Part shown: one piece after another, positions 668 to 31,394 of the stretch
How positions within the stretch are numbered: position 1 is the stretch's first letter
How the letters are laid out: each line of letters starts with the position of its first letter
From: a virus
Reading direction: 5' to 3' (one strand)
Virus record (IMG/VR): IMGVR_UViG_3300004807_000047
Span: 1 to 40,466 of that record
DNA length: 40,466 nucleotides
Notes under the pieces: model-generated
Databases searched by the model: none
Seen by the model: only the letters and a program-made list of their open reading frames with translations
Told to the model about the DNA's origin: nothing
Made by a program: the position numbers and the translations under genes

Positions 668-742
668 TGGTGCGCTGACTTGGAATTGAACCAAGACTCG
701 ACCGATTATGAGTCGGTTGCTTTACCATTAAGCTATCAGCGC
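668..742 (-). tRNA. tRNA with anticodon CAT (Met or Ile2)
   Basis: The minus strand folds into a full cloverleaf. It has acceptor GCGCTGA/TCAGCGC, D stem GCTT/AAGC, anticodon stem ACCGA/TCGGT with loop CTCATAA, a 5-base variable loop, and T stem CTTGG/CCAAG with loop TTCAATT. The discriminator is A and CCA is encoded at 670-668. The anticodon is CAT. It may be elongator Met, or Ile2 if C34 is modified to lysidine; the stem bases next to the loop (CGA/TCG) match remembered bacterial Ile2 tRNA better than Met. A perfect sigma70 promoter lies just upstream. Confidence 0.93.
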
Positions 743-26417: not shown

Positions 26418-26468
26418 GGAATGGTGGTATTTTTGGTTAGTTAGCAGGTGCCTTTTAAAGGTTTAGCT

Positions 26469-26476
26469 TATAAATA
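26469..26476 (+). promoter_or_regulatory. Perfect late promoter box for the zinc-finger gene
   Basis: TATAAATA on the plus strand, 4 bases before ATG 26481, so the mRNA would have almost no leader. Confidence 0.75.
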
Positions 26477-26480
26477 CACT

Positions 26481-26831
26481 ATGAAACAACGAAAACTCTG
26501 CCCAGAATGTAGAACCAATCCGGTGGCTGTAAATTACATCCGTGACCAAGTAACCCACTATAGAAGTCTGTGTGCTGCCTGTATTAGAAAACGAGCAAAA
26601 TTAAAACCCGAGGCTCCGGCATGGAGGCGATCGGGCTATACGAAAAAACCACAGTGCGAAGTCTGTGGTTTTAAATTAAAGTTGTCAAATCAAAGTGTGG
26701 TATATCACGTTGATGGCAATTTAAAAAACAACAACTGGCACAATTTAAAAACTGTGTGCCTTAATTGTCAGCAGGAATTGTTTACTAGTCGTTTGGGTTG
26801 GCGGCCGGCTAAGATTGTACCAGATTTTTAA
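26481..26831 (+). CDS. Zinc-binding HNH-like small protein
   Basis: A 116-residue plus-strand protein with two zinc pairs in the N-terminal half (C-P-E-C and C-A-A-C) and a second unit C-E-V-C ... YHVDGNLKNNNWHNLKTVC-x2-C, which is an HNH-like treble clef with H, N and N. The start ATG 26481 is chosen because a perfect late promoter lies 4 bases upstream; an ATG at 26448 is before that promoter. Close relatives are remembered near sheath genes of aquatic T4-like phages. It could be a nuclease or a DNA/RNA-binding regulator. Its end overlaps the gp1 gene by 23 bases. Confidence 0.8.
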   Translation: MKQRKLCPECRTNPVAVNYIRDQVTHYRSLCAACIRKRAKLKPEAPAWRRSGYTKKPQCEVCGFKLKLSNQSVVYHVDGNLKNNNWHNLKTVCLNCQQELFTSRLGWRPAKIVPDF

Positions 26832-27503: not shown

Positions 27504-28466
27504 CTAGCCTTGTACCCAAGTTAATGGTTGGCTTCCGTCCACAAACATCTTTAGATCTTCTTCCAATTTATCCATTTCTTCTTTGGCTTCGGATTTTAAC
27601 GATGCACCGTTTAAGGTAGTTCCTCCACCGGGGCCAACAATTTGGCTGAACTTTTCGCGTGCTTCGCCTAGGATACGTTTAGAGAAACTGTAGGCATATT
27701 CCTGTATCCAGGGAAATGCCTGTGCATCATTGAATATCATTTGATCAGGCTTTTGATTAAAGATCCAGAGCAGAACCGATTCTTGTTGTGTTAGATCGGG
27801 ATTGGCGCCTTGCCACGGCATCTTGCGTACCACAGTTAATTTCTTGGTAACCGGATTGAATGTGAAATTCATATAGCCACCAAACATCATCATGGCCAAC
27901 TTTTGATAGTCCACAAACAATTCATAGTTGGTCAATCCACCTACACGTCCTGCAACCAACATATAAGTGTTTAGATAACCAGATGAGAACGGTTCAAATT
28001 GACTGGCGGTGGTTCCTGTTACTGATCCAATACCACGTCTAAATATCTGACGAACTCCCATAATTTCTTTGGGCAGTATGTATTCTTGTGTTTCAGGTAG
28101 TAGCACCAGGTGTGCATAGCTTTCTTCTGTTGAATTTTGTGCTCGTTGTCTATACTTGATCAAGGCCTGATTGATGGCCATTTCGTAGTGTTCATTTTCC
28201 AGTTCCACGTCCACAATGCCATCTGCTAATCTTAGACGAATATAGTCTTTGATGGCAGCACGCATGCTGTCAGTGGTATTACCAATATCCCAATTGGGAT
28301 CAGTGACTCCGGGAAAACTTACATCAGGATTGCCAGGGAAAGCAATTGTGCCGGCACCAGAACCTGTGTTTGCACTGAACAGGCTGGAAGAAATTACGTT
28401 GTTGTTGGCATCAAATCCAGTTTCTTGTACTACTGGGTTGTCATTTGGGTGTAGACCATTGGTCAT
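27504..28466 (-). CDS. 13: Neck protein gp13
   Basis: This 320-residue protein carries the gp13 pattern of aquatic T4-like phages: AIKDYIRLRLADGIVDVELE, ALIKYRQRAQNSTEESYAHL, YILPKEIMGVRQIFRRGIGS, GYMNFTFNPVTKKLTVVRKM, QESVLLWIFNQKPDQMIFND, and a final LGEAREKFSQIVGPGGGTTL. gp13 seals the packaged head and forms the tail-docking ring with gp14. It lies on the opposite strand from gp14, unlike T4 where 13, 14 and 15 are together. A late promoter and a ribosome-site hairpin control its start. Confidence 0.9.
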   Translation of the reverse strand: MTNGLHPNDNPVVQETGFDANNNVISSSLFSANTGSGAGTIAFPGNPDVSFPGVTDPNWDIGNTTDSMRAAIKDYIRLRLADGIVDVELENEHYEMAINQALIKYRQRAQNSTEESYAHLVLLPETQEYILPKEIMGVRQIFRRGIGSVTGTTASQFEPFSSGYLNTYMLVAGRVGGLTNYELFVDYQKLAMMMFGGYMNFTFNPVTKKLTVVRKMPWQGANPDLTQQESVLLWIFNQKPDQMIFNDAQAFPWIQEYAYSFSKRILGEAREKFSQIVGPGGGTTLNGASLKSEAKEEMDKLEEDLKMFVDGSQPLTWVQG

Positions 28467-28468
28467 AA

Positions 28469-28491
28469 AAATACTCCGTTATAGAGTATTT
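28469..28491 (-). promoter_or_regulatory. Hairpin sequestering the gp13 ribosome site
   Basis: An 8-bp stem (28491-28484 with 28476-28469, 7-base loop) contains the GGAG ribosome site, 7 bases before ATG 28466. The late promoter's start is expected in the loop. Confidence 0.75.
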
Positions 28492-28494
28492 ATA
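28487..28494 (-). promoter_or_regulatory. Perfect late promoter box for gp13
   Basis: TATAAATA overlapping the 5' arm of the ribosome-site hairpin and the stop of the 391-aa gene. The expected start is near 28481. Confidence 0.78.
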
Positions 28495-29665
28495 CTGCCT
28501 TTAGTAGCACCACATCAGGATTTATGCGTCCGTTCATTTTGGTTTCTGTGGCCTTGATATCATCCAAGAACTTACGCAACTGCACTTTGCCGGCCTTGGC
28601 AAACTCTTTGAGAGCGACTTCGGGTTTTCTTAGTGTTTTGCTGACCGACTTTTGTTCGTCAAAGTTGACAATGCTGGTACCTTTGACGCTTAGGGTTTGA
28701 TAACTGCCAGCAACGTATCGGCCCAGTTTTCGAGTTTTAATGTTAAACACCCAAACTTCGCTGGCCCCAACAATTTCTGCGGGATTGATTGACACAATTT
28801 TAAGAACGGGATCGGTCTTGGCGTATTTGAGTTTGGCAATGAGTTTTTCTTTACTGGGCGCTTTTTTAACTCGGGCTTTTTTACTGGCCTTTTTCACAGA
28901 TTTGTACTGTTCCAGTGCCGCTAGTAAATCATCAATCCAACCAATTATTCTTTTAAAGTCTGCGGCCTTGTAGTGTTTATATCCTTCTACCAGTTGTTCT
29001 TCGGTTCGTCCACGTGCAAGTTCTAGTTCGCTGGCACGATTGGCATAAAGTTCTTCGTACTTGGCAATTTGACTTTGTACCACATTGTTGGCAACTAAAA
29101 AATCATATGGCTTAAAATTAGTTTTGACATTTCGAACCGCATCATCGTAGTGCCCTTCTAGTTCGCCAATGATTTCGCTGGTCTTTTCGTTCAGTCGATC
29201 TTGTATGGTTGGTGCCTTGTACACTGGTTTATCTTCTACTGTGGCGACTTCAACAGGTTCGGGATCGGCTTTGGATATGGCATCTAGGATACATTCGCTT
29301 AAAAACTCAAGGTGTCGCGATTTGAGCGGCATATTGGCACGAACGTTGGCCATGATCAAACTGCAGGCAGTCATTGGAATACTTTTATCCGAAGTACGCT
29401 CAAATGCTCTAACTTGTTCTTTGGTGTATTCTTTGGGTCTCAGTTTCAACCACTCGATCACGTTCTTGCGTGCATCTTTTTGACTGTAGTAGTAATTGTA
29501 GTAATAGAAACTTTGACGAAGTTTATGGTCAAAATCAGCATCGCTCAAATTGACGTCGTCCTCGCTCCAATCAGGTTCGCCCCCGGTGTATTTTTCGTCG
29601 TGAAAAGCGGGATTACGGACTTTGGTTTGTTTGGTTTTGATTTTAATGCCTGCAACCGTGGCCAT
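28490..29665 (-). CDS. Hypothetical protein, 391 aa
   Basis: The N-terminal part has an aromatic-rich helix (FDHKLRQSFYYYNYYYSQKD) and later KDARKNVIEWLKLRPKEY. The middle is charged and helical with a Lys-rich stretch (KSVKKASKKARVKKAPSKEK). The C-terminal part is beta-type (VLKIVSINPAEIVGASEVWV, RKLGRYVAGSYQTLSVKGTS). This is a conserved type in aquatic T4-like phages, from memory, without a known role. It might bind DNA or be an internal protein. The ribosome site AAGGAG precedes ATG 29665. Confidence 0.7.
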   Translation of the reverse strand: MATVAGIKIKTKQTKVRNPAFHDEKYTGGEPDWSEDDVNLSDADFDHKLRQSFYYYNYYYSQKDARKNVIEWLKLRPKEYTKEQVRAFERTSDKSIPMTACSLIMANVRANMPLKSRHLEFLSECILDAISKADPEPVEVATVEDKPVYKAPTIQDRLNEKTSEIIGELEGHYDDAVRNVKTNFKPYDFLVANNVVQSQIAKYEELYANRASELELARGRTEEQLVEGYKHYKAADFKRIIGWIDDLLAALEQYKSVKKASKKARVKKAPSKEKLIAKLKYAKTDPVLKIVSINPAEIVGASEVWVFNIKTRKLGRYVAGSYQTLSVKGTSIVNFDEQKSVSKTLRKPEVALKEFAKAGKVQLRKFLDDIKATETKMNGRINPDVVLLKAV

Positions 29666-29690
29666 AACAACTCCTTAAAATTCTATTATA

Positions 29691-29942
29691 CTATATTTTC
29701 AGCAAACTGCCTAAGATCAACTGTTGCTCTAATACAACAAGTGCTTCTTCCAATTTTTTGGCAAGTTCTTCGTATTTTGCTGTAAACTTTCGTTTACGTC
29801 TACATTCCACAAATTCACTGTCCAATCGGGCCCACAGACCCACACAATTTTGGTACATCAAATGTAACTGTGTATTGCCCAGTCGTTGAACTACCGGATT
29901 TGCATCAGTCAATCTTTGGTGTAATTCTGGGCTGTGACTCAT
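29691..29942 (-). CDS. Small hypothetical protein, 83 aa
   Basis: Begins at ATG 29942 (MSHSPELHQRLTDANPVVQR); a longer frame to 29981 is rejected because it would include the promoter. The protein is charged and helical, with a basic centre (CRRKRKFTAKYEELAKKLEE) and a hydrophobic tail. A sigma70 promoter ends 10 bases before the ATG, so it is probably an early gene leading a transcript into the 391-aa gene. No ribosome site is seen. Family unknown. Confidence 0.6.
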   Translation of the reverse strand: MSHSPELHQRLTDANPVVQRLGNTQLHLMYQNCVGLWARLDSEFVECRRKRKFTAKYEELAKKLEEALVVLEQQLILGSLLKI

Positions 29943-29952
29943 AATATTACTT

Positions 29953-29981
29953 ATTATAACACCTTTCCCATTCCCAGTCAA
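29953..29981 (-). promoter_or_regulatory. Sigma70 promoter for the 83-aa gene
   Basis: TTGACT (29981-29976), 17-base spacer and TATAAT (29958-29953). The start near 29946 leaves a leader of about 4 bases before ATG 29942. Confidence 0.75.
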
Positions 29982-29985
29982 ATGC

Positions 29986-29993
29986 GATAAATA
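29986..29993 (+). promoter_or_regulatory. Late promoter box for gp14, gp15 and Nudix
   Basis: GATAAATA on the plus strand, 18 bases before ATG 30012, with TAAGGA as ribosome site. It lies back-to-back with the sigma70 promoter of the 83-aa gene. Confidence 0.7.
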
Positions 29994-30011: not shown

Positions 30012-31394
30012 ATGGCCCGTTTAAGTTTATGGCAAGATGGCAAGCACTCGAATGATTACAAGTTCTTTGACCGTCGCATTTCCGAAATGTTCACTATTGG
30101 TGGTACTGGAGTACTGCTGAACAAATATCTAGGCACAAATCCACAAGGCATGTATTTAAACACCTCGTCCGCTCAGACCGGGCCTGATATTCAATTGAAT
30201 TTTGCCACCGTGGGCAATGTGCAAGTGGGCAATTTTGTTTACGGCACCGGAATTCCCACCAACGCCACAGTCAGCACCGTTTCATCAAACAGCATAACTT
30301 TGAATTTACCGACCACTGTTGCGATACCGAGCGGAACGCAGATAGGATTTAGTGCGGATGCTACTCAGCCGGCTTACACAAATCAAAGTGTCTCAAACAT
30401 ACAAGATTTATTATGGACCGAGAATCGAGATAGAAAATACGAAACCACTGTGTATAAAATGCGCGGTCACTATCAACGTGCCGATCAAGATTTTGATCTA
30501 AGCCAATTTGGTTTGTTTTTACAAACCGGCACGATCTTCATGACCTTTCATTTGCGTGACATGGTAGATCTAATCGGACGTAAACTGATCGCAGGGGATG
30601 TGTTGGAACTAGAACACTTGAAAGATTATGACGCATTAAACACCGATTTGCCGGCAGCGTTAAAAAGATATTATGTGGTCAGTGACGCCAGTTTTGGTGG
30701 TGAAGGATTTTCACCAACTTGGTGGCCGCACTTGTGGCGAGTCAAACTCAATCCCATGGTGGACAGTCAAGAATACAAAGATATTCTTAATAATGTTGTG
30801 GCCGGCCCCAACACAACAACTCCAGTGGGCAACATTTTGAGTACCTATCAAACTTACTTGAATCTCAACGAAACCATTGTTGCACAAAGTGAGTTTGATG
30901 TACCACTTAGTGGGTACAATACCAGCACCGTGTACACAGTTGCTACCGACCCCGCAGGCAACCCGGTAGGCAACCCCATAACCAGCGACAACAACTCAAT
31001 CACTGCCGATCAACTTGATCCCACTGCCGATAGTGGAGTTACCAGTCCTGATTATAAAATACAAGGCTATTTAACCGGGGATGGTCGTGCTCCAAATCAG
31101 CTGACCACCAGTGCTGGTATTGCGTTCCCAACCAATCCCAACGAAGGCGACTACTTTCTTAGACTGGACTATTTGCCCAATAGGCTATTTAGATTTGATG
31201 GAAGATTTTGGCGCAAAATTGAAGATGCAGTACGTACCAATATTACCCCGGGTGCTGCAAATAATCAAACTGTACGCAATAGTTATGTAAATAACACTAA
31301 CACATACACTGACAGTCAAGGCACAGTTTGGAACGAAAGACAAAATCTCAGCATTGCTCTAACTCCGCGGGCCGACAACAGTGACAACAAATAA
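30012..31394 (+). CDS. 14: Neck protein gp14
   Basis: This 460-residue protein has the gp14 signature of T4-like phages: HSNDYKFFDRRISEMFTIGG, a NIQDLLWTENRDRKYETTVY segment, YQRADQDFDLSQFGLFLQTG, RKLIAGDVLELEHLKDYDAL and a SPTWWPHLWRVKLNPMVDSQ segment. It is much longer than T4 gp14 (256 aa): an insert near residues 45-115 and a C-terminal extension of about 190 residues, Thr/Asn-rich, probably surface-exposed neck decorations. With gp13 and gp15 it joins head and tail. Confidence 0.88.
   Translation: MARLSLWQDGKHSNDYKFFDRRISEMFTIGGTGVLLNKYLGTNPQGMYLNTSSAQTGPDIQLNFATVGNVQVGNFVYGTGIPTNATVSTVSSNSITLNLPTTVAIPSGTQIGFSADATQPAYTNQSVSNIQDLLWTENRDRKYETTVYKMRGHYQRADQDFDLSQFGLFLQTGTIFMTFHLRDMVDLIGRKLIAGDVLELEHLKDYDALNTDLPAALKRYYVVSDASFGGEGFSPTWWPHLWRVKLNPMVDSQEYKDILNNVVAGPNTTTPVGNILSTYQTYLNLNETIVAQSEFDVPLSGYNTSTVYTVATDPAGNPVGNPITSDNNSITADQLDPTADSGVTSPDYKIQGYLTGDGRAPNQLTTSAGIAFPTNPNEGDYFLRLDYLPNRLFRFDGRFWRKIEDAVRTNITPGAANNQTVRNSYVNNTNTYTDSQGTVWNERQNLSIALTPRADNSDNK

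Follow-up and report, generated by a model that had tools for sequence, protein, structure and literature searches.

A putative early-off, late-on switch in the gp13 leader of jumbo T4-like phages

How can a virion gene stay silent early in infection when it lies directly behind genes that are probably read early? The question is raised by gp13 in the IMG/VR record IMGVR_UViG_3300004807_000047, a virus DNA of 40,466 nt, which was analysed over its full length and is called the window here. The gp13 protein matched phrog_211 "head-tail adaptor Ad2" (PHROG match, E 1.6e-30), and its neighbours in the window include a dNMP kinase gene and a gene for a 1129-aa tail sheath. Judged by gp13 identity, by these neighbours and by the named relatives, the window phage is of the large jumbo T4-like kind: most of the best named gp13 relatives have genomes of 280-490 kb, and the identity was below 60% in all of these relatives. 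To the upstream gene, Pfam gave no usable name (GrpE, E 0.034, below the cut-off). The sole Rfam match in the window was a tRNA gene (671-742, minus strand). Between the sheath and kinase genes, a small HNH-like ORF with weak matches lies on the opposite strand (26448-26831, plus), and its longest frame holds a perfect TATAAATA at 26469-26476. We computed the elements of the gp13 leader, its predicted fold and the loss of this fold on truncation, its conservation among relatives, including compensating changes, and the promoter types.

The hairpin and the late promoter ahead of gp13

The features of the locus are listed in Table 1. The initial annotation placed the GGAG of gp13 in the 3′ arm of an 8-bp hairpin, with a perfect late motif over the 5′ arm and a late transcript start in the loop. 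The GGAG is indeed in the 3′ arm, where all 4 of its bases are paired in the predicted fold; the stem is 9 bp, because a closing U.G pair is added to eight Watson-Crick pairs (28491-28483 with 28477-28469). The overlap of TATAAATA (28494-28487) with the 5′ arm (28491-28483) was found as described. In T4 late promoters, the last A of TATAAATA is at -6. Therefore, the late start is predicted at 28481, in agreement with the loop position proposed earlier. The pair probabilities were 0.73-1.00 for every stem pair in three sequence contexts. Perfect copies of TATAAATA occur four times in the window, the gp13 copy included.

Table 1. Features of the gp13 locus in the window.
Feature	Position	Strand	Basis
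gp13, head-tail adaptor Ad2 (phrog_211), 320 aa	27504..28466	-	ORF and PHROG
gp13 ATG	28466	-	ORF
Hairpin 3′ arm, including Shine-Dalgarno (SD) GGAG 28477-28474	28469..28477	-	predicted fold
Hairpin loop ATAAC	28478..28482	-	predicted fold
Predicted late transcript start, in loop	28481	-	T4 spacing
Hairpin 5′ arm, on read-through RNA only	28483..28491	-	predicted fold
Late promoter motif TATAAATA, perfect	28487..28494	-	motif scan
Stop codon of upstream gene, overlapped by TATAAATA	28492-28490	-	ORF
Upstream gene, 391 aa, phrog_11903, no assigned function, probably early	28490..29665	-	ORF, PHROG, promoter type
Sigma-70-like promoter TAGGCA-17-TATAAT, ahead of upstream gene	29685..29713	-	promoter scan
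Small ORF, 83 aa, heading the operon that runs into gp13, without PHROG match	29691..29942	-	ORF
Sigma-70-like promoter TTGACT-17-TATAAT, 11/12, TG before -10, towards gp13	29953..29981	-	promoter scan
Late motif GATAAATA of divergent virion gene, back to back with sigma-70 promoter	29986..29993	+	motif scan
Divergent virion structural gene (phrog_11591)	30012..31394	+	ORF, PHROG

The initial annotation further held that the ribosome site is hidden on read-through RNA and that late RNA lacks the 5′ arm. The predicted costs of opening the GGAG support this: 9.6 kcal/mol on the read-through RNA of the window versus 1.5 kcal/mol on the late RNA. When the context was varied from 62 to 400 nt upstream and from 12 to 150 nt downstream, the cost was 7.7-10.0 kcal/mol, and for RNA begun at 28484 to 28478 it was 1.2-2.4 kcal/mol. 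The 91-nt fold had a z of -2.71 and was matched by 2/200 shuffles. In dinucleotide shuffles of the upstream part, which were run on leader row L003 (identical to the window in this region), 1/300 attained the opening cost of 9.6 kcal/mol.

From the sequence, we consider it quite probable that the gp13 leader is an early-off, late-on switch of the T4 gene e type, as was first suggested for this locus. The late virion gene gp13 is immediately preceded by a short operon with host-type (early) promoters, and read-through RNA from this operon would hold both arms of the hairpin; the gp13 ribosome site would be buried, and no gp13 would be made early. Later, a phage sigma factor of the gp55 type would start RNA at TATAAATA inside the hairpin. 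This late RNA would begin in the loop without the 5′ arm, would not form the fold, and would be translated. The actual start sites, the early repression and its strength are what we infer from the computed features. Termination and translational coupling may add to the switch.

The hairpin effect is specific to few genes. Nine window starts combine a late motif with an SD, and the effect was seen at gp13 alone (gain in opening cost 8.1; next best 2.4). By this gain, gp13 ranked 1/9 in the window, 2/42 in G001, 2/50 in G003, 1/25 in G004 and 2/50 in phage GAP32, and a gain of 7 was reached by 10/171 other late-motif starts in these five. With the same metric, the T4 controls scored 10.7 (e), 11.1 (I-TevII) and 8.1 (49); the T4 starts listed in this scoring do not include gene 13. 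T4 soc scored 0.1. Thus, the metric misses some known cases. The divergent T4 late pairs 26/51 and 4/53 have similar hairpins and scored high, we think because their opposed late promoters overlap.

Hairpins and compensating changes in relatives

Searches of IMG/VR with gp13 gave 229 rows (225 distinct loci), to which nine phage records were added at first; fragments whose match fell short of the start were left out, as were duplicate contigs and a small number of distant rows. After identical leaders were merged, 115 were distinct, 113 were scored and 108 had a late motif. A leader was counted as a hairpin when its opening cost was at least 5 kcal/mol and at most 7/300 shuffles were as high. 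By this rule, the hairpin is present in 92 of the 108 distinct late-motif leaders (86, 84 and 74 of 108 with stricter cuts). The median opening cost was 12.5 on read-through RNA versus 1.3 on late RNA. All SD partners are upstream of the predicted late start in 92/92 hairpins, although the short late leader largely forces this.

The geometry varies. Most relatives depart from the arrangement of the window: their SD-pairing arm is placed ahead of TATAAATA or at the beginning of the motif, which itself occupies the loop or is close to it. The named RaK2-like phages are built like the window, with a 5′ arm that contains the late motif or directly adjoins it. Among 18 named cultured jumbo-phage records, 13 have the hairpin, and these include the E. 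coli K-12 phage Sharanji, whose recorded host is MG1655. The annotated gp13 starts look 12-18 nt off in PBECO4 (L231), RaK2 (L232), 121Q (L303) and Kaldavass (L307); in these four phages, translation more likely begins at the ATG that directly follows the hairpin and SD.

Covariation among relatives had been set beforehand as a test of the stem. In a group of 17 sequences that share one hairpin span, 97.3% of 187 cells were paired, and 6/11 pairs were changed on both sides. The both-side changes amounted to 28 cells, a number reached by 0/500 shuffles, and slid controls were 33-47% paired. The covariation score was 0.388 versus a shuffled mean of 0.170, and RNAalifold recovered the same stem. 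A group of 16 sequences with a second span was 94.5% paired with 20 both-side cells (0/500 shuffles). Covariation was weak in a group of 13 sequences with a third span (89.9% paired, 3 cells). Because the leaders were sorted by hairpin span before counting, all these groups are selected for pairing. The same bias applies to the set of 62 distinct arm pairs, which was picked for having hairpins; here the own arms gave 531/620 standard pairs, and the best of 1000 re-pairings gave 409. Thus, stems of this family covary in two groups and more weakly in the third, but the register of the window stem itself was found only in near-identical contigs, with 0-1 mismatches.

These data bear on two simpler accounts of the hairpin. 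The first is a chance palindrome, in which promoter and SD happen to be partly complementary. For the window taken alone, 1/300 shuffles attained the opening cost, and its register is not found in distinct relatives; for the family, however, chance is refuted by the 92/108 leaders together with the covariation, and we regard it as hardly credible. The second account places the inverted repeat at the DNA level, as an operator or as two opposed late promoters. The divergent T4 late pairs described above form similar hairpins, and the other strand of the window carries TAAAAATA at 28466-28473. On the other hand, the stem drifts widely with compensating changes and includes some G.U pairs (29 cells). 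Therefore, pairing at the RNA level suits these stems better. An opposed TAAATA between the late motif and the ATG was found in only 1/92 hairpin leaders (L028), and the idea of opposed promoters was set aside for this reason. We judge a DNA-level repeat to be very improbable.

It is also conceivable that the hairpin is mainly an intrinsic terminator. It would then end the RNA of the upstream operon just ahead of gp13 and house the late promoter, and the pairing of the SD would be secondary. A run of at least four T between SD and ATG was found in 38/92 hairpin leaders versus 17/176 late-motif starts of the window, G001, G003, G004 and GAP32, and the window itself has five T at this place. However, 54/92 hairpins are without a T run, whereas the SD is fully paired in 88/92. 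A terminator scan called none at gp13 in the window, L038 or GAP32, although its rules suit these stems poorly, and the ARNold terminators marked by the depositors of GAP32 are elsewhere, with none at gp13. Thus, we consider termination unlikely as the main function. In the clades with T runs, the two functions might be combined as a self-erasing double lock: the hairpin would terminate early RNA and also hide the ribosome site, and a start inside the hairpin would remove both blocks. Such a lock could be a general guard for virion genes behind early genes in jumbo T4-like phages, gained and lost with gene order. We put this forward only as a tentative idea.

Translational coupling was weighed in the same way. 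Ribosomes that end the upstream gene would melt the hairpin, and gp13 made from read-through RNA would then track the upstream protein. In the window, the promoter and the upstream stop codon overlap, and the first SD partner follows this stop by 6 nt; among 76 leaders with the upstream gene adjoining, the SD partner is inside the upstream coding region in 15. Nevertheless, the position of the SD partner relative to the stop is not conserved: it ranges from -15 to +39 nt (commonest 11) and is at least 16 in 11/76. Moreover, hairpins are kept where an extra gene intervenes (L098, L117 and L154) and behind other upstream genes in the named phages. Coupling as the principal explanation has, in our estimate, a low probability, and we retain the hiding of the SD on read-through RNA as the preferred reading.

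The upstream operon and the strand of the neighbouring gene

The proposed switch supposes that the RNA running into gp13 is early. A promoter scan of the window region gave 12 promoter-like sites versus 11.0 in shuffles. Because this count barely differs from that of shuffles, the promoters of the window itself are only suggestive, and the weight comes from relatives. In the region between gp13 and the divergent virion gene, a sigma-70 promoter oriented towards gp13 scored at least 10.5 in 43/43 testable relatives and at least 11.5 in 39/43 (shuffled mean 0.2 at 11.5). The upstream gene has a TATAAT within 60 nt in 26/81 relatives and a late motif in 6/81; gp13 has a late motif within 60 nt in 81/81 and a TATAAT in 1/81. 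A late motif was also found at the divergent virion gene in 39/43 relatives. Because sigma-70-type promoters precede the upstream operon, the read-through RNA into gp13 is probably early. A forward late motif is present somewhere in the longer upstream region in 15/43 relatives, and therefore some of the read-through RNA may be late.

Same-strand genes of the nudix hydrolase, glutaredoxin or macro-domain/ADP-ribose binding type are among those ahead of gp13 in GAP32, PBECO4, RaK2, CBB, Munch and K64-1 (those of CBB were named through its similarity notes to GAP32). From their type, we take these genes to be early. Two further observations were made at the head of the operon in the window. The early-type promoter (minus) and the late motif (plus) within 29953-29993 are about 4 bp apart, and a similar pairing is seen in relatives. 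On the minus strand at 29940-29958, the small ORF of the operon has its first ATG about 4 nt past the predicted early start; therefore, the RNA of this ORF may be nearly leaderless.

The hairpin was missing in 8/10 leaders with an opposite-strand neighbour versus 14/104 with a same-strand neighbour (Fisher p 2e-5), where L137, L139, L143, L144 and L147 (about 25% identity, no late motif) are counted as having no hairpin. RaK2 was counted as a hairpin once its start had been shifted by 12 nt. The ORF rule classed L057 as opposite, yet its insert has the longest ORF on plus, and it classed L233 as same, yet the annotated neighbour of L233 is on minus; swapping these two classes left the table unchanged. 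On independent pairs from a quick tree, the association was not significant (median 3/5 pairs in the expected way, 0 in the other and 2 undecided), these pairs being too few for significance.

Individual cases go both ways. In L045 (2223-2870) and L015 (462-1235, minus), an HNH-type gene, inserted in reverse orientation, separates gp13 from the upstream gene; the Pfam HNH match was above the cut-off in L045 and just below it in L015. Both leaders are without the 5′ arm of the hairpin, and L049, the tree neighbour of L045, keeps the hairpin. Such reverse insertions may unhook the switch. In L196, the divergent virion gene is directly upstream and there is no hairpin. The hairpin is also lacking in Atu_ph07, Phosso and SCTP-2, whose neighbour is on the opposite strand, and it is weak in a Vibrio phage. 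L022 is a counter-case, with an opposite-strand insert yet a strong hairpin. Same-strand relatives without the hairpin are L113, L209, L166, L170, L183, PA5oct and others, and L113 and L209 have consensus sigma-70 promoters. These hairpin-less same-strand leaders count against a strict rule.

Known systems and other hairpin leaders

In T4 gene e, as described in a review, the late promoter is within a hairpin, early read-through RNA folds over the SD and late RNA is without the 5′ part (PMC3014915). The gp13 leader shares the late promoter in the hairpin region and the predicted covering of the SD on read-through RNA; gene e is a lysis gene, whereas gp13 is a head-tail connector gene in phages distantly related to T4. 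T4 reviews describe the same control at e, soc, 49 and I-TevI, and the repression of e is given as 100-fold (PMC3014915; PMC2988022). The genes soc and 49, and also 39, 25 and 26, are late genes carried on long early or middle RNAs in which their ribosome sites are hidden (PMC2988022); gp13 would resemble soc and 49 in being carried on such RNA, although soc is missed by our metric. The same review, where it treats the hairpins of I-TevI, I-TevII, I-TevIII, segB and Aeh1 mobE, gives the combination of promoter and hairpin proposed here (PMC2988022). These are homing endonuclease genes, intronic or free-standing, whereas gp13 encodes a head-tail adaptor. The geometry of the I-TevII hairpin is nearly that of many gp13 relatives.

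A relative of the window codes for a late sigma factor (phrog_12791, E 1.5e-79). T4 gp55 as a query gave weak matches in 4/8 records and none in G003, GAP32 and PBECO4, and a gp55-type late sigma factor was not found in the 40-kb window. For CBB, the published description reports that structural genes are preceded by a T4-like late motif and that the phage has a sigma factor resembling gp55 (PMC5259590). The motif given there for CBB and GAP32, ATAAATA, is T4-like and upstream of structural genes, as here (PMC5259590). The word "hairpin" is absent from the consulted text of this paper (PMC5259590). Among the papers listed by searches of an open-access library, none describes this switch for gp13 in its title or abstract.

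The logic of the switch is already known in T4, and the points of interest here are the conservation, the gene and the testability. If the proposed reading is right, the timing switch known from T4 would also act on a gene of the head-tail connector and would be spread across a large group of phages, most of them uncultured, with comparative evidence across relatives that goes beyond what one leader could offer. It predicts that such a guard is needed for late genes behind same-strand early genes. The switch can be tested in the cultured phages named above, one of which is recorded on E. coli K-12, and corrected gp13 start sites are suggested.

Strong hairpin leaders were also seen at other genes. 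The three strongest hairpins of GAP32 are those of gp13, of a "virion structural protein" gene and of a gene adjoining another such gene, all behind early-type genes. The latter two leaders (L309 and L310; NC_019401, 16348-16869 and 235913-236446) follow, on the same strand, small hypothetical genes and Dda helicase, IF3-like and ClpS-like genes. In G001 (189429-189923, L245) and G003 (101932-102417, L259), the strongest hairpin leaders of the genomes, with gains of 14.6 and 13.6, precede genes for proteins of about 160 aa without an assigned function.
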